Source: Gammaproteobacteria bacterium (GTDB taxonomy: Bacteria > Pseudomonadota > Gammaproteobacteria > Steroidobacterales > Steroidobacteraceae). Taken from it: a DNA stretch of 35,466 bases. The notes under the pieces are model-generated. The model had not been told where the DNA came from. It did not search any database and saw nothing but the letters and a program-made list of their open reading frames with translations. Below, in pieces: positions 2-18,356 of the stretch (positions within the stretch are counted from its first letter, which is position 1; each line of letters starts with the position of its first letter). Where the stretch lies: the NCBI GenBank assembly GCA_016874175.1, contig VGUP01000010.1, positions 1 through 35,466 on the forward strand, read 5' to 3'. Both the position numbers and the translations under genes were made by a program.

Positions 2-55
2 GGCGCGCTCGCCGAGGCGGGTCACAAGGTCGAAATGTTCCACATCGGCGGGTGA
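2..55 (+). CDS. moaA: MoaA C-terminal end (partial gene)
   Basis: The first 17 codons of frame 2 end in His-Ile-Gly-Gly followed by TGA. A C-terminal Gly-Gly is characteristic of MoaA (GTP 3',8-cyclase), the radical SAM enzyme that starts molybdopterin synthesis, and it is needed for catalysis in that family. The stop codon overlaps the GTG proposed as the moaC start, which fits a moaA-moaC operon. The rest of the gene lies upstream of the window. The call rests on a very short piece plus its neighbour, so an unrelated protein ending in GG is possible but less likely. Confidence 0.7.
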
Positions 56-570
56 GGCGGACGGTGAAGCAGCGCAAATCGACGGCCGGGCTCACCCACC
101 TCGACGCCACGCAGCGACCGACCATGGTCGATGTCAGCGCCAAAGAAATTACGCCACGTGAAGCCACCGCCGAGGCGCGCATGCGCCTGCCCGCCGCCGT
201 GGCCCGCGCGCTCGCTGCCACCGGTCATCGCACCCACAAGGGTCCGGTGTTCGACACCGCAGTGATCGCGGCGGTGCAGGCGGTCAAGCGCACGCACGAA
301 CTCATTCCGTTTTGTCACCCGCTGCCGATCGATCATTGCGAGCTCGACATCGACTCGACGCGCCGCGGGCGGATCACCATCCGTTGCACGGTGCGCACCA
401 CGCACAAGACGGGCGTCGAAATGGAGGCGCTCACCGGCGCCACCGTCGCCGCCCTCACCGTCTATGACATGTGCAAGGCGCTCTCCCACGACATCGTCAT
501 CGAGAGCGTTCGGCTGCTCGCCAAGCGCGGTGGCAAGCGCGACTTCAAGCGCGCCCCGAAATCACGATGA
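52..570 (+). CDS. moaC: Cyclic pyranopterin monophosphate synthase MoaC
   Basis: MoaC works with MoaA in the first step of molybdenum cofactor synthesis, converting the cyclised GTP product to cyclic pyranopterin monophosphate in the cytosol. The 172-residue product carries the family signatures [24 protein letters not shown] and YDMCK, which contain the conserved His, two Glu, Asp and Lys of the active site. The length matches the usual 160-170 residues. The start is either GTG 52, overlapping the moaA stop, or GTG 64. The internal ATG at 124 would remove the conserved LTHLD segment, so it is unlikely. The gene is followed 7 bp later by the mobA-moaD fusion, suggesting one transcript. Confidence 0.95.
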
Positions 571-577
571 ACTCCCG

Positions 578-1426
578 ATGATGGATTCCGTGCCGCCGCT
601 ATTCGGCCTGCTGCTTGCCGGCGGGCGCAGCACGCGCATGCGCCGCGACAAAGCTGCGCTGCAGTACCACGGTCGCGCCCAGCTCGAGGCGGCCTATGAT
701 TTGTTGGCCAAAGTAACCGTCCAAGCCTACGTCTCGGTACGCGCCGATCAGGCCGCAGACCCGCTGCGCAGGCGCTATCCGCAGATTGTCGATCGAGACG
801 ATCACATGGGACCCCTCGCCGGCATCCTAGCAGCGCAGCAGCGCCATCCCGAGGCAGCATGGCTGGTGCTCGCCTGCGATCTGCCTTTTCTGGACGAAGC
901 GACCTTGCAACATCTCGATAAACATCGGGATCGCGCCGGGCTCGCCACCGCCTACCGCTCGAGTCACGACGGTCTGCCCGAACCGCTGTGTGCCGTCTAC
1001 GAGCCGGCCTCGGCCCTGCCGCTCGCACGCTACGCCGCCGCCGGGCGGAACTGCCCGCGGAAATTTCTGCTGGAACAGTCGGCGAAGTTGCTCGAACCGC
1101 TGCACGCCGCCGCTCTCGACAACGTCAATTCCAGCACCGACTATTGGCAGACCATGCAAACGCTGTCCGCCACCGCCGCCGCATCGCTCACCTTGCGGGT
1201 GCAGTACTTCGCGCTGCTGCGCGAGCAAGCCGGTCGCCGCGACGAATCACTCGTCACCGCGGCACGCACGCCGGCCGAGCTCTACACCGAGTTGCAAGCG
1301 AAGTACGGTTTCAGCTTGCCGCTCGAAATGCTGAGAGTCGCCGTCAATGCCGAGTTCGGCGATTGGCATCAACCCTTGCAAGACGGCGACGCCGTCGTTT
1401 TCATTCCGCCCGTCGCCGGCGGTTGA
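578..1426 (+). CDS. MobA-MoaD fusion: Mo guanylyltransferase plus MPT synthase small subunit
   Basis: This is a single uninterrupted 282-residue ORF. Residues about 8-195 resemble MobA, which attaches GMP to molybdopterin: the nucleotide-binding LAGGRSTRM..DKA loop is at residues 13-25 and a Mg-binding Asp101 lies in ACDLPFLDE. Residues about 204-282 are a ubiquitin-fold MoaD, ending in VAGG. That free Gly-Gly tail is the one adenylated by MoeB and thiocarboxylated to feed sulfur to MPT synthase. MoaD is C-terminal, so its tail stays available. The MobA loop has Arg22 where Gly is usual (RMG to RMR). Start choice is ATG 578 or ATG 581; the longer ORF running back into moaC is a shadow. It sits between moaC and the moaE fusion in the same operon. 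Confidence 0.92.
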   Translation: MMDSVPPLFGLLLAGGRSTRMRRDKAALQYHGRAQLEAAYDLLAKVTVQAYVSVRADQAADPLRRRYPQIVDRDDHMGPLAGILAAQQRHPEAAWLVLACDLPFLDEATLQHLDKHRDRAGLATAYRSSHDGLPEPLCAVYEPASALPLARYAAAGRNCPRKFLLEQSAKLLEPLHAAALDNVNSSTDYWQTMQTLSATAAASLTLRVQYFALLREQAGRRDESLVTAARTPAELYTELQAKYGFSLPLEMLRVAVNAEFGDWHQPLQDGDAVVFIPPVAGG

Positions 1427-1437
1427 CGCCGAGCAAT

Positions 1438-3075
1438 ATGGCGCGCTCGCCTGCCGATCACAGCCGCTTCCGTTTCAGCGCGACGGCCGTCGATGTGCCA
1501 GCGCTGCAGCGCGAACTTGCTGATCCTCGCTGCGGCGGCTATGCCGCTTTCGAAGGCTGGGTGCGCAATCACAATGAAGGCCAAGAGGTCACTCACCTCG
1601 AGTACGAGGCTTTCGCCGAACTCGCCGTGCGCGAGGGCGAGCGCATCATCGCCGAGGCTTGCACGAAATACGGTGTCGATAACGCACGTTGCGTGCATCG
1701 CGCCGGCGATCTGGCGCTCGGCGAACTGGCCGTCTGGGTCGGCGTCAGTGCGCAGCATCGCGATGAAGCCTTCAAGGCTTGTCGCTACATCATCGACGAG
1801 GTCAAGCACCGCGTTCCGATCTGGAAAAAAGAGCACTACGTCAGTGGCGACTCGGGCTGGGTGAACTGCGAGCGCTGCGCCACCGCACCGCAGCACGCAC
1901 ACGATCACGCTCACACGCACGATCACGCTCACGATCACGCTCACACGCACGATCACGCTCACGATCACGCGCAACCCGCGGCGCTCGCACCCGATTACTC
2001 GCGGCAGATGAATCTGCGCGAAGTCGGTGCGGCTGGCCAAGCCAAACTGCGCGCGGCGCAAATCGCAGTGGTGGGCGCTGGCGGTCTCGGGGTGCCAGTG
2101 CTGCAATTTTTGGCGGGAGCCGGCGTCGGTCGACTCATCATCATCGACGGCGATCGGCTGGAGCCCTCGAATCTGCATCGTCAGACCTGGTACGCGCTCG
2201 CCGATTGCGGACAAGCCAAGGCCGAACTCGCAGCGGCTCGGGTGCGCGCGCTTAATCCGGAGGTTGCGGTCGAGGTGCACACGCAGCGACTCGATGCACT
2301 GAACGCCGCTGGCCTGCTTGCCAATGCCGAGCTGCTCATCGATTGCAGCGACAACTTCGGGACCAAATTTTTGCTCAACGATCTTGCGCATGCGCTCGGT
2401 CGACCCGCCATCTTTGCCAGCGTTCATCAGTACGAGGGCCAGTTGCAGGTGGTTGATCCGCGCCGCGCTGGTGCCTGTCTGCGTTGCCTGTGGCCCGAAG
2501 CCACACGCGACGGCGTCGTCGCCAACTGCGCCGAGGCCGGCGTGCTCGGCCCCGTGCCGGGCGTACTCGGCAGTCTGCAGGCGCTGGAAGCGATGAAGTT
2601 GCTGCTGGATCTACCGGGACGGCTCGGCGACGAAGTGCTCACGGTCGATCTGCTCGGCCTCGGCACCACGCGCATCCGCGCACGGCGGCGCGGCGATTGC
2701 GCGGGCCGCTGCACGCTCGCGGCGAGCGTGCTGCAAAAAGCCACGCAGCAGCGGCAGTCCGAGCAGGCACAGGGCGCGCCTGAGCTGCACTTCGACGATC
2801 TGCAAATGGCCGTCGACGCGGGCTATGCCTTGATCGATATCCGCGACGCCAAAGAAATCGCGGCAACGCCGCTGCCCCTGCCCACCCTCGCCATTCCGAT
2901 GCACGAATTGCTCGAAGGACGGAACCTGCCCGCCGAAGGCCGCTACCTGCTCGTCTGTGCGCGGGGCGCGCGCAGCCTTGGCACCACGCGAGCGCTGCGC
3001 GAGCGCGGCCTCACGGCCGTGTTTTCTTTGCAGGGTGGCGCACTTGGGCTCCTGGAGCGCCGCACGGGCCAATAG
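1438..3075 (+). CDS. MoaE - His-rich linker - MoeB/ThiF E1 - rhodanese triple fusion
   Basis: The 545-residue protein joins three steps of molybdopterin sulfuration. Residues about 10-145 are MoaE, the MPT synthase large subunit, with Lys123 and Lys130 in K-HRVPIW-K spaced like the two catalytic lysines of E. coli MoaE. Residues 153-178 alternate His with Asp, Ala or Thr (13 His in 26). Residues about 186-430 are a MoeB/ThiF adenylyltransferase with VGAGGLG at 212-218, a CLRC pair at Cys347/Cys350 and Cys364 in NCAEAGV. Residues about 455-545 are a rhodanese domain with active-site loop CARGARS starting at Cys507. MoeB-rhodanese resembles eukaryotic MOCS3; adding MoaE is unusual. ATG 1438 was chosen; TTG 1423, overlapping the previous stop, is an alternative. 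Confidence 0.93.
   Translation: MARSPADHSRFRFSATAVDVPALQRELADPRCGGYAAFEGWVRNHNEGQEVTHLEYEAFAELAVREGERIIAEACTKYGVDNARCVHRAGDLALGELAVWVGVSAQHRDEAFKACRYIIDEVKHRVPIWKKEHYVSGDSGWVNCERCATAPQHAHDHAHTHDHAHDHAHTHDHAHDHAQPAALAPDYSRQMNLREVGAAGQAKLRAAQIAVVGAGGLGVPVLQFLAGAGVGRLIIIDGDRLEPSNLHRQTWYALADCGQAKAELAAARVRALNPEVAVEVHTQRLDALNAAGLLANAELLIDCSDNFGTKFLLNDLAHALGRPAIFASVHQYEGQLQVVDPRRAGACLRCLWPEATRDGVVANCAEAGVLGPVPGVLGSLQALEAMKLLLDLPGRLGDEVLTVDLLGLGTTRIRARRRGDCAGRCTLAASVLQKATQQRQSEQAQGAPELHFDDLQMAVDAGYALIDIRDAKEIAATPLPLPTLAIPMHELLEGRNLPAEGRYLLVCARGARSLGTTRALRERGLTAVFSLQGGALGLLERRTGQ
1899..1970 (+). repeat. 30-bp in-frame tandem repeat encoding the His-rich linker
   Basis: Positions 1911-1940 and 1941-1970 are identical 30-mers. 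The 10 bases before them (1901-1910) match the last 10 bases of the unit. The unit itself is built from CACGATCACGCT-like sub-units. It encodes alternating His residues between the MoaE and MoeB domains. Because 30 is a multiple of 3, gain or loss of a unit would keep the reading frame. Confidence 0.95.
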
Positions 3076-7101: not shown

Positions 7102-7107
7102 ATGCGA

Positions 7108-10068
7108 ATGAATCTCTCGGTATTGTTGTGGGGCATCCCGCAAGCCATGCGGGCCATGTCGAAGCTCTATCCGGCCTACGCCGCGCGCCTGCGCGAACGC
7201 AATCTCGTCGCCCAGTTCCGCCTGCGTGACGTGGCCGAGGGCCGCTGGATCGAGCTGCGCGACGGCAAGATCAAAAGTCGCGCGGGGCTGCATGCCGCGC
7301 CCAACCTCACCATCCACTTCAAAAACCGCGAGATCGCCGAAGGTTTTCTCACCCCGCCCTTCGACATGCTCGAACGCATCGACGCGGCAAAGAATTTCAA
7401 GATCGGCTTCGATGGTCCGGACAATCTCGCCGTGTGGTTCATGCAGACCCTCACGCGTCTCGAGACCGTCACCTGGAAAGCCGGCACCGATATGGGCGAT
7501 GGCGTCACGCGCTACACCAACGGCACCAACAGCGGACCGATTTTCGTCTATGTGAAGGACGGCAAGATCATCCGCACCACGCCCATCGATTTCGATGACA
7601 GCGATGCCGACTCTTGGTCGATCAAGGCACGCGGCCAAACCTTCAAGCCCAGCCGTCGCACCACCGTGGCGACCCATGGCCTCTGCCTGAAATCGATGGT
7701 CTATTCGAAAAACCGCATTCTGCATCCGATGAAACGCGTCGACTTCGACTCCGACGGCGAGCGCAACATCCAGAATCGAGGCAAGTCGAAGTTCGTGCGC
7801 ATCAGTTGGGATGAAGCACTCGATATCGTCAGCCAAGAAATCAAGCGCGCCAAGGCGGTCGGCCCGGGTGCGGTGTGCGTCGCCAACGGCTCACATCACC
7901 AGTGGGGAAATCTCGGGCACTACATGAGTGCCTTCAACCGCTTCTGGAACCTCATCGGCGTCACCAAGCTCGTGCACACGCCAGACAGTTGGGAAGGCTG
8001 GTTCTGGGGCGCGATGCACCACTGGGGCAACAGTCTGCGACTCGGCTGCCCCGAGTTTTACGGCACGGTCGAAGACTGCCTCAAAGAAGCCGAGATGATC
8101 GTCTTCTGGTCCAGCGACCCGGATGCCACCTACGGCTTCGAGGGCACCGAGCGCCGCGAGTGGGGAAAGAAACTCGGCATCAAGATGGTGCACATCGACC
8201 CCTATCTCAATCACACCGCCGCGCACTTGGGCGGCAAGTGGATTTCGCCCAAGCCCGGCACCGACCCCGCCATCGCGCAGGCGATCTGCCACGTCTGGAT
8301 CACCGAAGGTCTCTACGACAAAAAATTCATCGAAGGTCGCACCACGGGCTTCGATGAGTGGAAGGCTTATATCCTGGGCGAAAGCGACGGCATCGCTAAA
8401 ACCCCCGAGTGGCAAGCTGGCGAAACCGGGGTGCCGGCGCGCGATGTGCGAGCACTGGCCCGCGAGTGGGGTTCAAAGAAAACCTATCTCGGTGCAGGCG
8501 GTTGGGGCGTGGGTCTGGGCGGCGCCGGCCGCAGTCCGATGGGCGCGCAATGGGCGCGCATGATGACCATCCTCGGTGCCATGCAGGGCTACGGTCGACC
8601 GGGCTCCAACTTCGGCAATCTGCAGTTCGGCGCACCGCTCGATTTCAATTTCTATTTCCCGGGATACGGCGAAGGCAGCTTCTCGGGTGAACTCACCACG
8701 AGCGCAAACTCCGCCAACAATTACCAGCGTATGCCGCACATCGTGACCATGAGCTCGGTGCGACAGGCGATCCCGCGCATGTGGTTCCCCGAAGCGATCA
8801 CCCAAGGCAAGGCCATGGGTTATCTCACCGATGTGTCCTCGATTCAGGGGCAGTTCTTTCCCTTTGGCTACCCCTCGCCCGGCCACGTGCGCGTGCAGAT
8901 GCTCTACAAGTACGGCAGCTCGTCGCTTGGCACGCAGGTGGGATCCAATCGCTGGATCCAGGCCTATCAGCACGAGAGCCTGAAATTCGTCGTCAATCAG
9001 TCGGTGTGGTGGGAAGGCGAAACGCCGTTCGCCGACATCGTGCTGCCGGCGTGTACGGTGTTCGAGCGCTGGGACATTGGCGAGTGGTACAACGTCGGCG
9101 CGGGCTACGTGCATCACATGTACTCGATGAACAACCATCGCGTGATCGCCCTGCAACACAAGGCGATCGAGCCCCTCGGCGAGTCAAAGTCGGACTACGA
9201 CATCTTTCTCGCCATCGCCGAGAAACTCGATCTCGGCGCGGTGTATTCGGAAGGCGGTACCTCCGAATACGACTGGTGCAAGCGCGTGTTTGATTCCTCG
9301 GATCTCGCCAAACTCACGAGCTGGCGCGAGTTCCTCAAAAAAGGCTACTACGTCGTCGCTCCCGATCCCGAGGCTGCTCGCGCACCGACCGCGAATCGCT
9401 GGTTCTACGAGGGTCGCAAGAAAGACACGCCCGAACCCTATCCGCTGCCCTCCGAATACGTCGCCGGACTCGGCAACGGCTTGCAAACCCCGTCGGGCAA
9501 ATTCGAATTCGTCGCCAGCACGCTCAAACGCATCGACGATCCGGACCGACCCCCGCTCAATCAGTACATGCCCGTCTACGAAGACGGCAAGCGCGAACCG
9601 CAGCTCGCCGAGTTCCCACTGCAGTTGTTGTCGCCGCACTCACGTTATCCCTTTCACCTGATGGGCGATGACGAAGGCTGCAGCGTGCGCGACATCCGCG
9701 AGCATCGCGTACGCAAAGACGGCCACTATTATTTGGTCGCCCGCATCAATCGCGAAGACGCCGCGGCGCGCGGTATTCGTGACGATGATCTCATTCGCCT
9801 TTGGAACAATCGCGGCTCGGTCGTCTGTGCCGCGCAGCTCACCGATCGACTGCGTCCCGGCGTGGTGTCGGCTTCGACCGCTTCGGCCGAGTATCGCCCG
9901 GCGGGCGAACCCGGCAAATCCACCGATCTCGGCGGCTGCATCAACATGCTGAACCCGAACAAAGCCATAGCACGCAAGACCCACGGCATTCGGCCGAATA
10001 CCACGCTCATCCAGATCGAGAAGTGGACCGGCGTCGACACCTGGCAACCGCGTGCGGAGATCGCCTGA
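7108..10068 (+). CDS. SCP2-like domain fused to transhydroxylase-type molybdoenzyme large subunit
   Basis: The protein is 986 residues. From about residue 131 it matches, nearly end to end, the large subunit of Pelobacter acidigallici pyrogallol-phloroglucinol transhydroxylase (DMSO reductase family, bis-MGD molybdenum). Shared segments include GPIFVYVKDGKIIR, SHH.WGN, PDSWEGW, EMIVFWSSDP, VPFADI.LPAC, FERWDI, GRKKDTP and GGCINMLNP. Ser294 in PDSW should ligate Mo, with Asp293 and His263 as active-site residues; these sit 119 positions beyond the Pelobacter numbers 175, 174 and 144 as I recall them. Residues about 25-120 resemble a sterol carrier protein 2 fold (QFRL, GRWIELRDGKIKSRAG, PNLTIHFKNREIAEGFL, GPDNLAVWF). 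No Tat signal is seen, so it should be cytosolic. It is coupled to the small subunit by TGATG. The substrate is unknown. Confidence 0.9.
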   Translation: MNLSVLLWGIPQAMRAMSKLYPAYAARLRERNLVAQFRLRDVAEGRWIELRDGKIKSRAGLHAAPNLTIHFKNREIAEGFLTPPFDMLERIDAAKNFKIGFDGPDNLAVWFMQTLTRLETVTWKAGTDMGDGVTRYTNGTNSGPIFVYVKDGKIIRTTPIDFDDSDADSWSIKARGQTFKPSRRTTVATHGLCLKSMVYSKNRILHPMKRVDFDSDGERNIQNRGKSKFVRISWDEALDIVSQEIKRAKAVGPGAVCVANGSHHQWGNLGHYMSAFNRFWNLIGVTKLVHTPDSWEGWFWGAMHHWGNSLRLGCPEFYGTVEDCLKEAEMIVFWSSDPDATYGFEGTERREWGKKLGIKMVHIDPYLNHTAAHLGGKWISPKPGTDPAIAQAICHVWITEGLYDKKFIEGRTTGFDEWKAYILGESDGIAKTPEWQAGETGVPARDVRALAREWGSKKTYLGAGGWGVGLGGAGRSPMGAQWARMMTILGAMQGYGRPGSNFGNLQFGAPLDFNFYFPGYGEGSFSGELTTSANSANNYQRMPHIVTMSSVRQAIPRMWFPEAITQGKAMGYLTDVSSIQGQFFPFGYPSPGHVRVQMLYKYGSSSLGTQVGSNRWIQAYQHESLKFVVNQSVWWEGETPFADIVLPACTVFERWDIGEWYNVGAGYVHHMYSMNNHRVIALQHKAIEPLGESKSDYDIFLAIAEKLDLGAVYSEGGTSEYDWCKRVFDSSDLAKLTSWREFLKKGYYVVAPDPEAARAPTANRWFYEGRKKDTPEPYPLPSEYVAGLGNGLQTPSGKFEFVASTLKRIDDPDRPPLNQYMPVYEDGKREPQLAEFPLQLLSPHSRYPFHLMGDDEGCSVRDIREHRVRKDGHYYLVARINREDAAARGIRDDDLIRLWNNRGSVVCAAQLTDRLRPGVVSASTASAEYRPAGEPGKSTDLGGCINMLNPNKAIARKTHGIRPNTTLIQIEKWTGVDTWQPRAEIA

Positions 10069-10913
10069 TGTCAAAGAAATGGAATCTCATCGTCGATATC
10101 GAGCGCTGCGACAACTGCCGCGGCTGCTTCATCGCCGTGAAGGACGAATACGCAGGCAATAATTTCCCGGGCTACAGCGCGCCGCAGCCCGCGCTGGGTC
10201 ACAACTGGCTCGAGATCAAGCGCCACGAGCGTGGCAGTTATCCGCTCGTCGATGCACGTTTTCAGCCGGTCATGTGCAACCACTGCGACGACGCGCCCTG
10301 CATGAAAGCCGCGCGCGACGGCGCCGTCAAAAAACGTGCTGACGGCATCGTGATCATCGATCCCATCAAGGCCAAGGGGCAGCAGCAAATCGTCGCCGCC
10401 TGCCCCTACGGCGCCGTGTCTTGGAACGAAGAGCTGCAGCTGCCGCAGCATTGGACCTTCGATGCGCATCTGCTCGATGCGGGCTGGACCAAGACGCGGG
10501 CCGAGCAGGCTTGCCCGACCGATGCGTTTCGCACCGTCAAACTCGACGACGCCGAGATACAGCGCCTCGCGGCAAGCGAGGGACTGGAGGTCGAACGCGC
10601 CGAGCTCGGTACCAAGCCGCGCGTCTATTACAAAAATCGCCACCTCATGACGCACTGCTTCGTCGGCGGCACGGTGGTGCAACGGGTCGGCGGGGTCGAG
10701 GAATGCGCCCCGGGCGCGACGGTAGTGCTCAGTCAGGCGGGGCGCGAGATCGGCCGCGCGACCACCGACACCTTCGGCGAGTTCAAGATCGACCGACTAC
10801 CCCCGGGCAGCGGCCGCTACGACCTCGAGGTGAGCGGCGCGGCGGGTCGGGCGAGCACGAGTTTCGAGCTCGGCAGCGCGAGCCCCTATCTCGAGGTGTT
10901 GACGCTCGCCTAA
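10068..10913 (+). CDS. Transhydroxylase small (Fe-S) subunit with reduced cluster set
   Basis: This 281-residue partner of the preceding molybdoenzyme resembles the Pelobacter transhydroxylase beta subunit, including GLEVERAELGTKPRVYYKN near residues 170-190. It also has a C-terminal Cna/transthyretin-like domain (about 200-281: APGATVVLS, GEFKIDRLPPG). Eight cluster Cys remain: 14, 17, 20 with 149, and 70, 73, 78 with 112, enough for two [4Fe-4S] clusters. The Pelobacter protein binds three. Here its fourth motif-1 Cys is Val, its CTMC pair is replaced in HWTFDAHLL, and the first Cys of CAHNC is absent. So exactly one cluster's ligands are gone. It starts at ATG 10068, overlapping the large-subunit stop. 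Confidence 0.9.
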   Translation: MSKKWNLIVDIERCDNCRGCFIAVKDEYAGNNFPGYSAPQPALGHNWLEIKRHERGSYPLVDARFQPVMCNHCDDAPCMKAARDGAVKKRADGIVIIDPIKAKGQQQIVAACPYGAVSWNEELQLPQHWTFDAHLLDAGWTKTRAEQACPTDAFRTVKLDDAEIQRLAASEGLEVERAELGTKPRVYYKNRHLMTHCFVGGTVVQRVGGVEECAPGATVVLSQAGREIGRATTDTFGEFKIDRLPPGSGRYDLEVSGAAGRASTSFELGSASPYLEVLTLA

Positions 10914-17926: not shown

Positions 17927-18356
17927 GTCGCGACCTCAGCTGCTGCATGCGATGCTGCCGGTCAGCGACCTCGCGCGCTCGCTAGTTTTTTATCGCCAGT
18001 ACTTTTCATTCGTCGAACTGCGGCGCATCGAACTAACGTCGCCCGCACGCACCCTAGTTTTCATCGGCACCGAGAGCGAACCCGGCAGCGCTTACAGCGA
18101 GGGCAGCGCGATGCAGCTCGAACTTTGGTACGAGCCCGCACGCCAAACGCCGCCACCCGCTACGCAGCACGCGCCATCGACGCTGCGCGCTCATGTCGGC
18201 ATTGCCGTGAGCGGCATTGACGGCTTCGTGGACCGGCTCGCCGCTGCAGGCGTTCCGGTGCTGCAGCGACCCGCCGCCTTGCGTCCGGGCGGGCGCCGTC
18301 TCGCGATGATCGCCGATCCCGATGGCCACGAGATCGAGTTGCTGGAAGTTCTTTGA
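17916..18356 (+). CDS. Glyoxalase I-like VOC protein
   Basis: A 146-residue vicinal-oxygen-chelate protein. All four metal ligands of E. coli glyoxalase I appear conserved: His11 (LLHAMLPV), Glu69 (QLELWYE), His93 (RAHVGIAV) and Glu141 (HEIELLEV). DPDG precedes the last ligand, as in GloA. It probably acts in the cytosol on methylglyoxal-type or similar thiol adducts. It would produce a D-2-hydroxyacyl thioester, which fits the D-2-hydroxyacid dehydrogenase just upstream. The start is GTG 17916, 11 nt inside the previous gene. It ends 2 bp before the next VOC gene's ATG. Confidence 0.82.
   Translation: MPAESRPQLLHAMLPVSDLARSLVFYRQYFSFVELRRIELTSPARTLVFIGTESEPGSAYSEGSAMQLELWYEPARQTPPPATQHAPSTLRAHVGIAVSGIDGFVDRLAAAGVPVLQRPAALRPGGRRLAMIADPDGHEIELLEVL

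Follow-up and report, generated by a model that had tools for sequence, protein, structure and literature searches.

The 35,466-nucleotide stretch of DNA considered here (positions 1 to 35,466 of contig VGUP01000010.1, assembly GCA_016874175.1, from a gammaproteobacterium of the Steroidobacteraceae), which we call the window, encodes a two-subunit molybdoenzyme whose large subunit carries an N-terminal domain with an SCP2-like fold, fused to a catalytic part of the pyrogallol transhydroxylase (PgtL) type. A preliminary description, made from the sequence alone, had proposed this fusion and considered its layout undescribed, and both proposals are borne out. In the open-licence literature, to which the search was confined so that a description elsewhere is possible, there was no paper joining pyrogallol transhydroxylase or molybdopterin enzymes with SCP2 or a sterol carrier protein, and those naming both SCP2 and phloroglucinol dealt with other subjects, as far as their titles and abstract openings tell. 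The fusion of SCP2 with a molybdoenzyme therefore appears to be undescribed. Also new in this analysis is that 93 of 101 distinct small subunits, the window's among them, are without the cysteines that should bind one of the three [4Fe-4S] clusters. We give about an even chance to the reading that the enzyme transfers hydroxyls on phenols whose hydrophobic part is held by the fused SCP2 domain.

Compared with PgtL, the large subunit has about 129-130 extra residues at its N terminus. The figure of about 119 in the preliminary description holds exactly as the offset at the active site, whereas the extension itself is about 129 residues long. The AlphaFold2 model of the window's extension has a predicted local distance difference test score (pLDDT) of 84.3 and a predicted template modelling score of 0.75, and its Foldseek comparison with the PDB returned SCP2-type proteins or alkylsulfatases at all of ranks 1-36 (E 1.2e-5 to 9.4e-3), the first other fold coming at rank 37 (E 0.042). 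The Foldseek table carries no indication of which part of the alkylsulfatases was aligned; their C-terminal domain is one that we take to have an SCP2-like fold. The highest template modelling scores (TM-scores), up to 0.61, belong to UbiJ-SCP2 structures. The picture was the same for a deltaproteobacterial extension that shares only 37% identity with that of the window, with a pLDDT of 81 and SCP2-type proteins or alkylsulfatases at Foldseek ranks 1-40. Profile comparison agrees: hhalign alignments of extension profiles with 23 SCP2 domains from Gammaproteobacteria reached probabilities of 52 and 70 and scores of 29.0 and 31.8. The highest scores from 100 column shuffles of each were 16.5 and 18.1, and the reversed profile scored 14.1 and 11.4. 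Among 29 homologous extension domains, Pfam SCP2 (PF02036) matched 7 (best E 0.0013) and Alkyl_sulf_C (PF14864) matched 5 (best E 0.027), and in a more diverse set SCP2 matched 3 of 21 (best E 0.0017). Even though Pfam stays below its curated cut-off for SCP2, with no such call in the scan of the full-length protein, an SCP2 fold is well supported for the extension by the predicted models and by hhalign, as the preliminary description had expected.

The remainder of the large subunit is homologous to pyrogallol transhydroxylase: phmmer aligns residues 133-975 with residues 4-869 of 4v4c_A (E 4.6e-267), the closest solved structure, at 49% identity. The score is 892 bits for PgtL against 54 bits for acetylene hydratase. 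The Pfam domains of the large subunit (Molybdopterin, AhtL-like_1st and Molydop_binding) all lie from residue 143 onward, and the homology covers the whole catalytic subunit, including AhtL-like domain 1, as in the RhL/PgtL family. An alternative in-frame ATG at 7102 would lengthen the large subunit to 988 residues. The key residues are in register, as stated in the preliminary description, with His263, Asp293 and Ser294 opposite His144, Asp174 and Ser175 of the transhydroxylase; together with Trp176, Tyr404 and Tyr560, these are conserved in the window's enzyme and throughout its clade (20 of 20 rows). We take Ser175 to be the ligand of the molybdenum, and the set of His, Asp and Tyr residues plus this serine to be the catalytic-site list of pyrogallol transhydroxylase; the window's large subunit possesses both the serine and the His/Asp/Tyr residues that mark the RhL/PgtL family.

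Around this core, the window's clade departs from the transhydroxylase. Arg153 is replaced by Tyr, Tyr152 by His, Gly470 by Val, and Trp354 by Leu, Val or Ile in 20 of 20 rows, while Phe468 has become Thr in 19 of 20 and Cys557 has become Val, likewise in 19 of 20. These positions presumably form the pocket lining of the transhydroxylase, and the substrate pocket of the window's clade is, judged from the alignment, altered.

The small subunit starts on the final base of the large-subunit stop codon, and across 96 loci a small-subunit match lies between -60 and +150 bp 3' of the large-subunit gene in 89. The transhydroxylase small subunit (PgtS), as we understand it, holds three [4Fe-4S] clusters, for which it has 12 cysteines. 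The window's retains 8 of these, with Val24 and Ala145 in the places of Cys23 and Cys145, in addition to the replacement of Cys126 and Cys129 listed in the table. After deduplication, 101 distinct small subunits remained, Pelobacter's included, and all 12 cysteines are found in 8 of them: that of Pelobacter, five paired with unfused enzymes, and those of L100 and L101, two fused loci from Deltaproteobacteria. The other 93, the window's among them, all have Cys13, 16, 19, 68, 71, 76, 109 and 149, and in every one of them position 126 is Trp and position 129 is Asp; the cysteine at 23 is missing from every one, and that at 145 from 84. By the ferredoxin ligand rule, which we assume to apply, positions 23, 126, 129 and 145 hold one [4Fe-4S] cluster; the ligands of this cluster would thus be gone from small subunits of the window's type, and two clusters should remain. 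With one cluster lost, the electron path should shorten, which fits a redox-neutral reaction, and the cysteine loss suggests transfer rather than net reduction or oxidation. A third deltaproteobacterial locus, L108, falls together with L100 and L101 phylogenetically and is also without these cysteines, so the loss may have occurred twice.

The fusion is old. In a tree of 48 rows, 41 are fused, including one copy that an insertion sequence (IS) has split. These 41 are monophyletic (support 100/99), and Pelobacter PgtL comes next to them (98/96); fused proteins being one clade, the fusion requires just one origin on this tree. When the tree was rebuilt by a quick method without the extension columns, the Shimodaira-Hasegawa-like approximate likelihood ratio test gave 99 for the fused clade and 95 for the placement of PgtL. 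Both trees are flagged for long branches in Pelobacter PgtL and several fused rows, and the midpoint root falls between a pair 33-36% identical and the rest, which, with the long branches, limits what can be claimed on the place of PgtL.

Fused enzymes occur in many Gamma- and Alphaproteobacteria, in Acidobacteria and Deltaproteobacteria, and on plasmids of soil Beta- and Alphaproteobacteria. Among 98 relatives, 26 genomes matched at E<=1e-60, and unfused relatives were at most 48% identical to the window's enzyme. A search of the bacterial genome collection gave 101 matches, of which the best 80 led to 78 loci. This set is biased to fused copies, since one of the six search peptides falls in the extension; the extension is covered in 73 of the 78, and the remaining 5 are cut, starting as they do at position 1-3 of the stretch concerned. 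Plasmids contributed 7 fused genes and 1 split gene (54-59% identity). Order-wide, the extension domain is present in 55 of 196 genomes, one copy each. Most of the matches fall in frames about 985-1350 residues long, and the rest are in short frames or are partial; no stand-alone or differently fused version was recognised among these 55. The viral contigs scanned gave no match, and a search with PF21423 over 397 genomes drawn from the phylum found the window's own genome and no added relatives. An apparently unfused match in Sinorhizobium terangae was rejected, as it proved to be a fused copy split by a transposase open reading frame (ORF) of IS110 type (named by eye), which sits between the SCP2 part and the enzyme part on the plasmid (L148:8067-12565). 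Some fused enzymes also have molybdoenzyme neighbours. In L152, L157 and L158 (genomes G059, G180 and G207), the fused gene has an unfused relative as its divergent neighbour, with 43-46% identity to the window's enzyme. In L154, L155 and L160, the neighbour is another molybdoenzyme, very distant (23% identity) and about 760-780 residues long, which is divergent in L154 and L155. In G059, two further distant AhtL-like genes (33%) adjoin two DPGC-like genes on the same contig.

Neighbouring genes were counted by tblastn over the 96 loci, as ORF picking by length had missed genes; some of these loci are one gene twice (e.g. L076 and L163), and the counts are not counts of independent genes. Three fused loci from records titled Deltaproteobacteria, L100, L101 and L108 (51-55% identical to the window's enzyme), have nearby genes for an arylformamidase-like cyclase, a cupin, a short-chain dehydrogenase/reductase, a 3-hydroxyacyl-coenzyme A (CoA) dehydrogenase and a 3-keto-5-aminohexanoate-cleavage-like enzyme. 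Without the cupin, this is the phloroglucinol-degradation set of Clostridium scatologenes, as given in an excerpt of PMC10470551. From the gene set, we infer that these clusters probably serve phloroglucinol degradation, although identity within some pairs of the cluster genes is just 35-44%, and three of the products (cyclase, 3-hydroxyacyl-CoA dehydrogenase and cleavage enzyme) match NCBIfam models below cut-off. DPGC, the phloroglucinol ring-opening gene, has a match in 6 of 9 genomes with other fused types, one of them weak (28% identity, G091). DPGC-like genes are present in G059, G180 and G207; in G059 and G207, the fused gene and a DPGC-like gene (71% identity) are about 10 and 12 kb apart. 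At E<=1e-10, DPGC was found in 0 of the 33 genomes with a window-type enzyme, including the window's own. The link of the fused clade to phenol metabolism is shown by its contexts of phloroglucinol type. The window's clade has its own pocket and would belong to a pathway other than the phloroglucinol route.

The plasmid-borne genes, 8 loci in all, are hosted by Burkholderia stagnalis, Paraburkholderia, Cupriavidus, Ensifer, Rhizobium, Sinorhizobium and Salipiger. All 8 loci encode an FAH-family hydrolase nearby (the one of Salipiger being 30% identical), 7 encode an acyl-CoA synthetase, 6 encode outer-membrane proteins of OmpW or FadL type, by similarity, and 4 encode a VOC protein of 356 residues that is similar to extradiol dioxygenases, its match to HpaD (6.7e-18) lying below cut-off. 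These neighbourhoods would fit hydrophobic phenols. For the window's clade, 19 of the 96 loci (e.g. L064:1329-2333) have, immediately upstream, a gene for a conserved VOC protein with two domains, of the glyoxalase family (neighbour cluster c2) and with no significant match in the PDB, and 13 have a TorD/NarJ-type chaperone gene close by. Another candidate, neighbour cluster c3, was rejected as mostly antisense ORFs over the small subunit.

In the reading to which we give an even chance, the window's enzyme would be a cytoplasmic molybdenum enzyme of the PgtL type with bis-molybdopterin guanine dinucleotide (bis-MGD), moving a hydroxyl on a phenolic ring or from one ring to another, with no use of O2 and no net exchange of electrons. 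The SCP2-like domain would act as a built-in carrier that takes hold of the phenolic substrate or co-substrate by a hydrophobic part and presents it to the molybdenum site. Redox-neutral chemistry, a phenol with a hydrophobic part as substrate and ligand binding by the domain are the inferred elements of this reading, and a carrier of hydrophobic substrates is most simply what the extension would be, by analogy with alkylsulfatases. Of the O2-independent hydroxyl transfer or reduction put forward in the preliminary description, transfer would thus be favoured over net reduction by the cysteine loss. A bolder form is possible, though we hold it as doubtful: a molybdenum family that shuttles hydroxyls on phenolic lipids (e.g. 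alkylresorcinols, acylated or prenylated phenols) without O2 or external electrons, with SCP2 lifting the substrate from a membrane or carrier and feeding the molybdenum site, and with the window's clade performing a new reaction whose product lies outside the phloroglucinol pathway.

Several results weigh against the SCP2 assignment or against a hydrophobic-phenol transferase. As to the SCP2 nature of the extension, the window's residues 1-129 alone have zero Pfam matches at E<=10, TM-scores normalised by query are moderate (0.43-0.61 over Foldseek ranks 1-36), hmmsearch of the extension profile against the PDB found SCP2-like 2 at E 1.1, behind a chance match at E 1.0, and a second HMMER profile did not retrieve SCP2 structures from the PDB. 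Asp174 is absent from 5 of the 21 other fused rows, being Ile in L102, L147 and L106 and Glu in L105 and L107, and the complete cysteine sets of L100 and L101 mean that cluster loss is not universal in fused enzymes. The window's own neighbourhood yields no pathway, and the VOC protein at 18353 is without an NCBIfam match. Moreover, fused relatives in phloroglucinol-type clusters would use small, water-soluble phenols, and their SCP2 domain may be structural. A rival explanation, which we hold as less likely than the first, is a plain pyrogallol- or resorcinol-type (trans)hydroxylase for such phenols, in which the domain is ligand-free and has a structural, regulatory or assembly role. The clusters around L100, L101 and L108, the DPGC-like genes of G059, G180 and G207 and the conserved catalytic core all favour it. 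However, the absence of a DPGC homologue from the window-type genomes and the changed pocket of the window's clade argue against it, as does the retention of the extension in loci uncut by a contig end, with an SCP2 topology that persists at 37% identity.

Other explanations give the SCP2 fold a different cargo or the metal site a different chemistry. That the substrate is a sterol or an acyl lipid, undergoing hydroxyl transfer or reduction as the preliminary description had it, is unlikely and not supported as stated, no sterol or acyl-lipid gene context having been encountered; such a substrate is possible, with support confined to the fold. It would agree with the acyl-CoA synthetase and outer-membrane channel genes near the plasmid-borne fused genes, and some records are named Steroidobacteraceae, but the catalytic half is that of a phenol enzyme, and no steroid-degradation gene was recognised beside the fused gene in the loci inspected. 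The preliminary description had named, as what would speak against its lipid substrate, close relatives with the same extension, no lipid binding and proven phenolic transhydroxylase activity; L100, L101 and L108 come near this by their gene contexts. It seems quite improbable that the enzyme dehydroxylates phenols reductively, or that it is a hydroxylase like resorcinol hydroxylase, exchanging electrons with a carrier. Two clusters should persist in the small subunit, and resorcinol hydroxylase belongs to the same small family, but the ligands of one cluster are lost, catechol dehydroxylases fall in another clade (PMC7028382, in excerpt), and the acetylene hydratase score is low. Least probable of all, and judged very unlikely, is O2-independent hydroxylation of a prenylated-phenol precursor of ubiquinone, with the SCP2 domain acting like UbiJ or UbiT. 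Ubiquinone precursors are phenols with a hydrophobic tail, which together with the UbiJ TM-scores speaks for it, but the window's genome has two UbiH-type hydroxylases above cut-off plus COQ7, and an SCP2 protein behind a UbiE-like ORF (named by eye); in addition, the distribution in the order is patchy and the gene contexts are catabolic.

The closest known system to the window's enzyme is the pyrogallol-phloroglucinol transhydroxylase PgtL/PgtS (PDB 4v4c), with which it shares the catalytic part, AhtL-like_1st, the Ser/Asp/His/Trp/Tyr core and a paired iron-sulfur subunit with a C-terminal beta domain. Contrary to the window's enzyme, PgtL/PgtS has no SCP2 domain and keeps 12 cluster cysteines rather than 8, and PgtL differs from the window's clade at Arg153, Trp354, Phe468 and Cys557. 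The resorcinol hydroxylase RhL/RhS of Azoarcus anaerobius is, like the window's enzyme, a member of the small, Ser-ligated RhL/PgtL family, as placed by the description in an excerpt of PMC10100899. Gut catechol dehydroxylases (Dadh and relatives) also use bis-MGD and alter hydroxyls on phenols, and the excerpt of PMC7028382 puts them in a separate clade near acetylene hydratase, naming pyrogallol hydroxytransferase as the only other bis-MGD enzyme known to act on aromatic rings; the window's enzyme does not belong with them, as judged through acetylene hydratase (54 bits against 892 for PgtL). UbiJ and UbiT of ubiquinone synthesis share the SCP2 fold with the extension, but they are stand-alone proteins of a biosynthetic complex with no enzyme fusion. 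The alkylsulfatases SdsA1, Pisa1 and YjcS, among the top Foldseek matches of the extension, likewise combine a catalytic enzyme with an SCP2-like domain, although their catalysis is unrelated. In them, the domain is presumably C-terminal, on a metallo-beta-lactamase-type hydrolase, and we take its role to be that of a carrier for the hydrophobic part of the substrate.

A clade with a lipid-carrier-like domain and a shortened iron-sulfur chain points to a phenol reaction that is not yet assigned, and the fusion may let the enzyme handle greasy phenols without oxygen. The finding also touches an old question, why a transhydroxylase needs iron-sulfur clusters in a redox-neutral reaction.

Table 1. 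Coordinates in the window of the molybdoenzyme, its aligned residues and the molybdenum-cofactor genes.
Feature	Position	Strand	Evidence
Large subunit, 986 residues: SCP2-like domain and pyrogallol-transhydroxylase-like molybdenum enzyme	7108..10068	+	ORF, Pfam, phmmer
SCP2-like N-terminal domain (predicted), residues 1 to about 129	7108..7494	+	AlphaFold2, Foldseek, hhalign
Pfam AhtL-like_1st (PF21423), residues 143-197	7534..7698	+	E 3.2e-28
His263, counterpart of transhydroxylase His144	7894..7896	+	Alignment
Asp293-Ser294-Trp295, counterparts of Asp174, Ser175 and Trp176	7984..7992	+	Alignment
Tyr520, counterpart of Tyr404	8665..8667	+	Alignment
Tyr667, counterpart of Tyr560	9106..9108	+	Alignment
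Small (iron-sulfur) subunit, 281 residues, with C-terminal CarboxypepD_reg-like domain	10068..10913	+	4v4c_B homologue, E 2.6e-62; Pfam
Small-subunit Trp129 to Asp132, replacing transhydroxylase Cys126 and Cys129	10452..10463	+	Alignment, window numbering by hand
Molybdenum-cofactor genes 5' of the large subunit	52..3075	+	Pfam; same neighbours in close relatives
MoaC	52-570	+	Pfam
MobA-like and ThiS-family (MoaD-type) fusion	464-1426	+	Pfam
MoaE and ThiF-family (MoeB-type) ORF, with a His/Asp-rich stretch between	988-3075	+	Pfam

The molybdenum-cofactor genes, about 4 kb upstream of the molybdoenzyme, appear to be fused, and their order is kept in close relatives.

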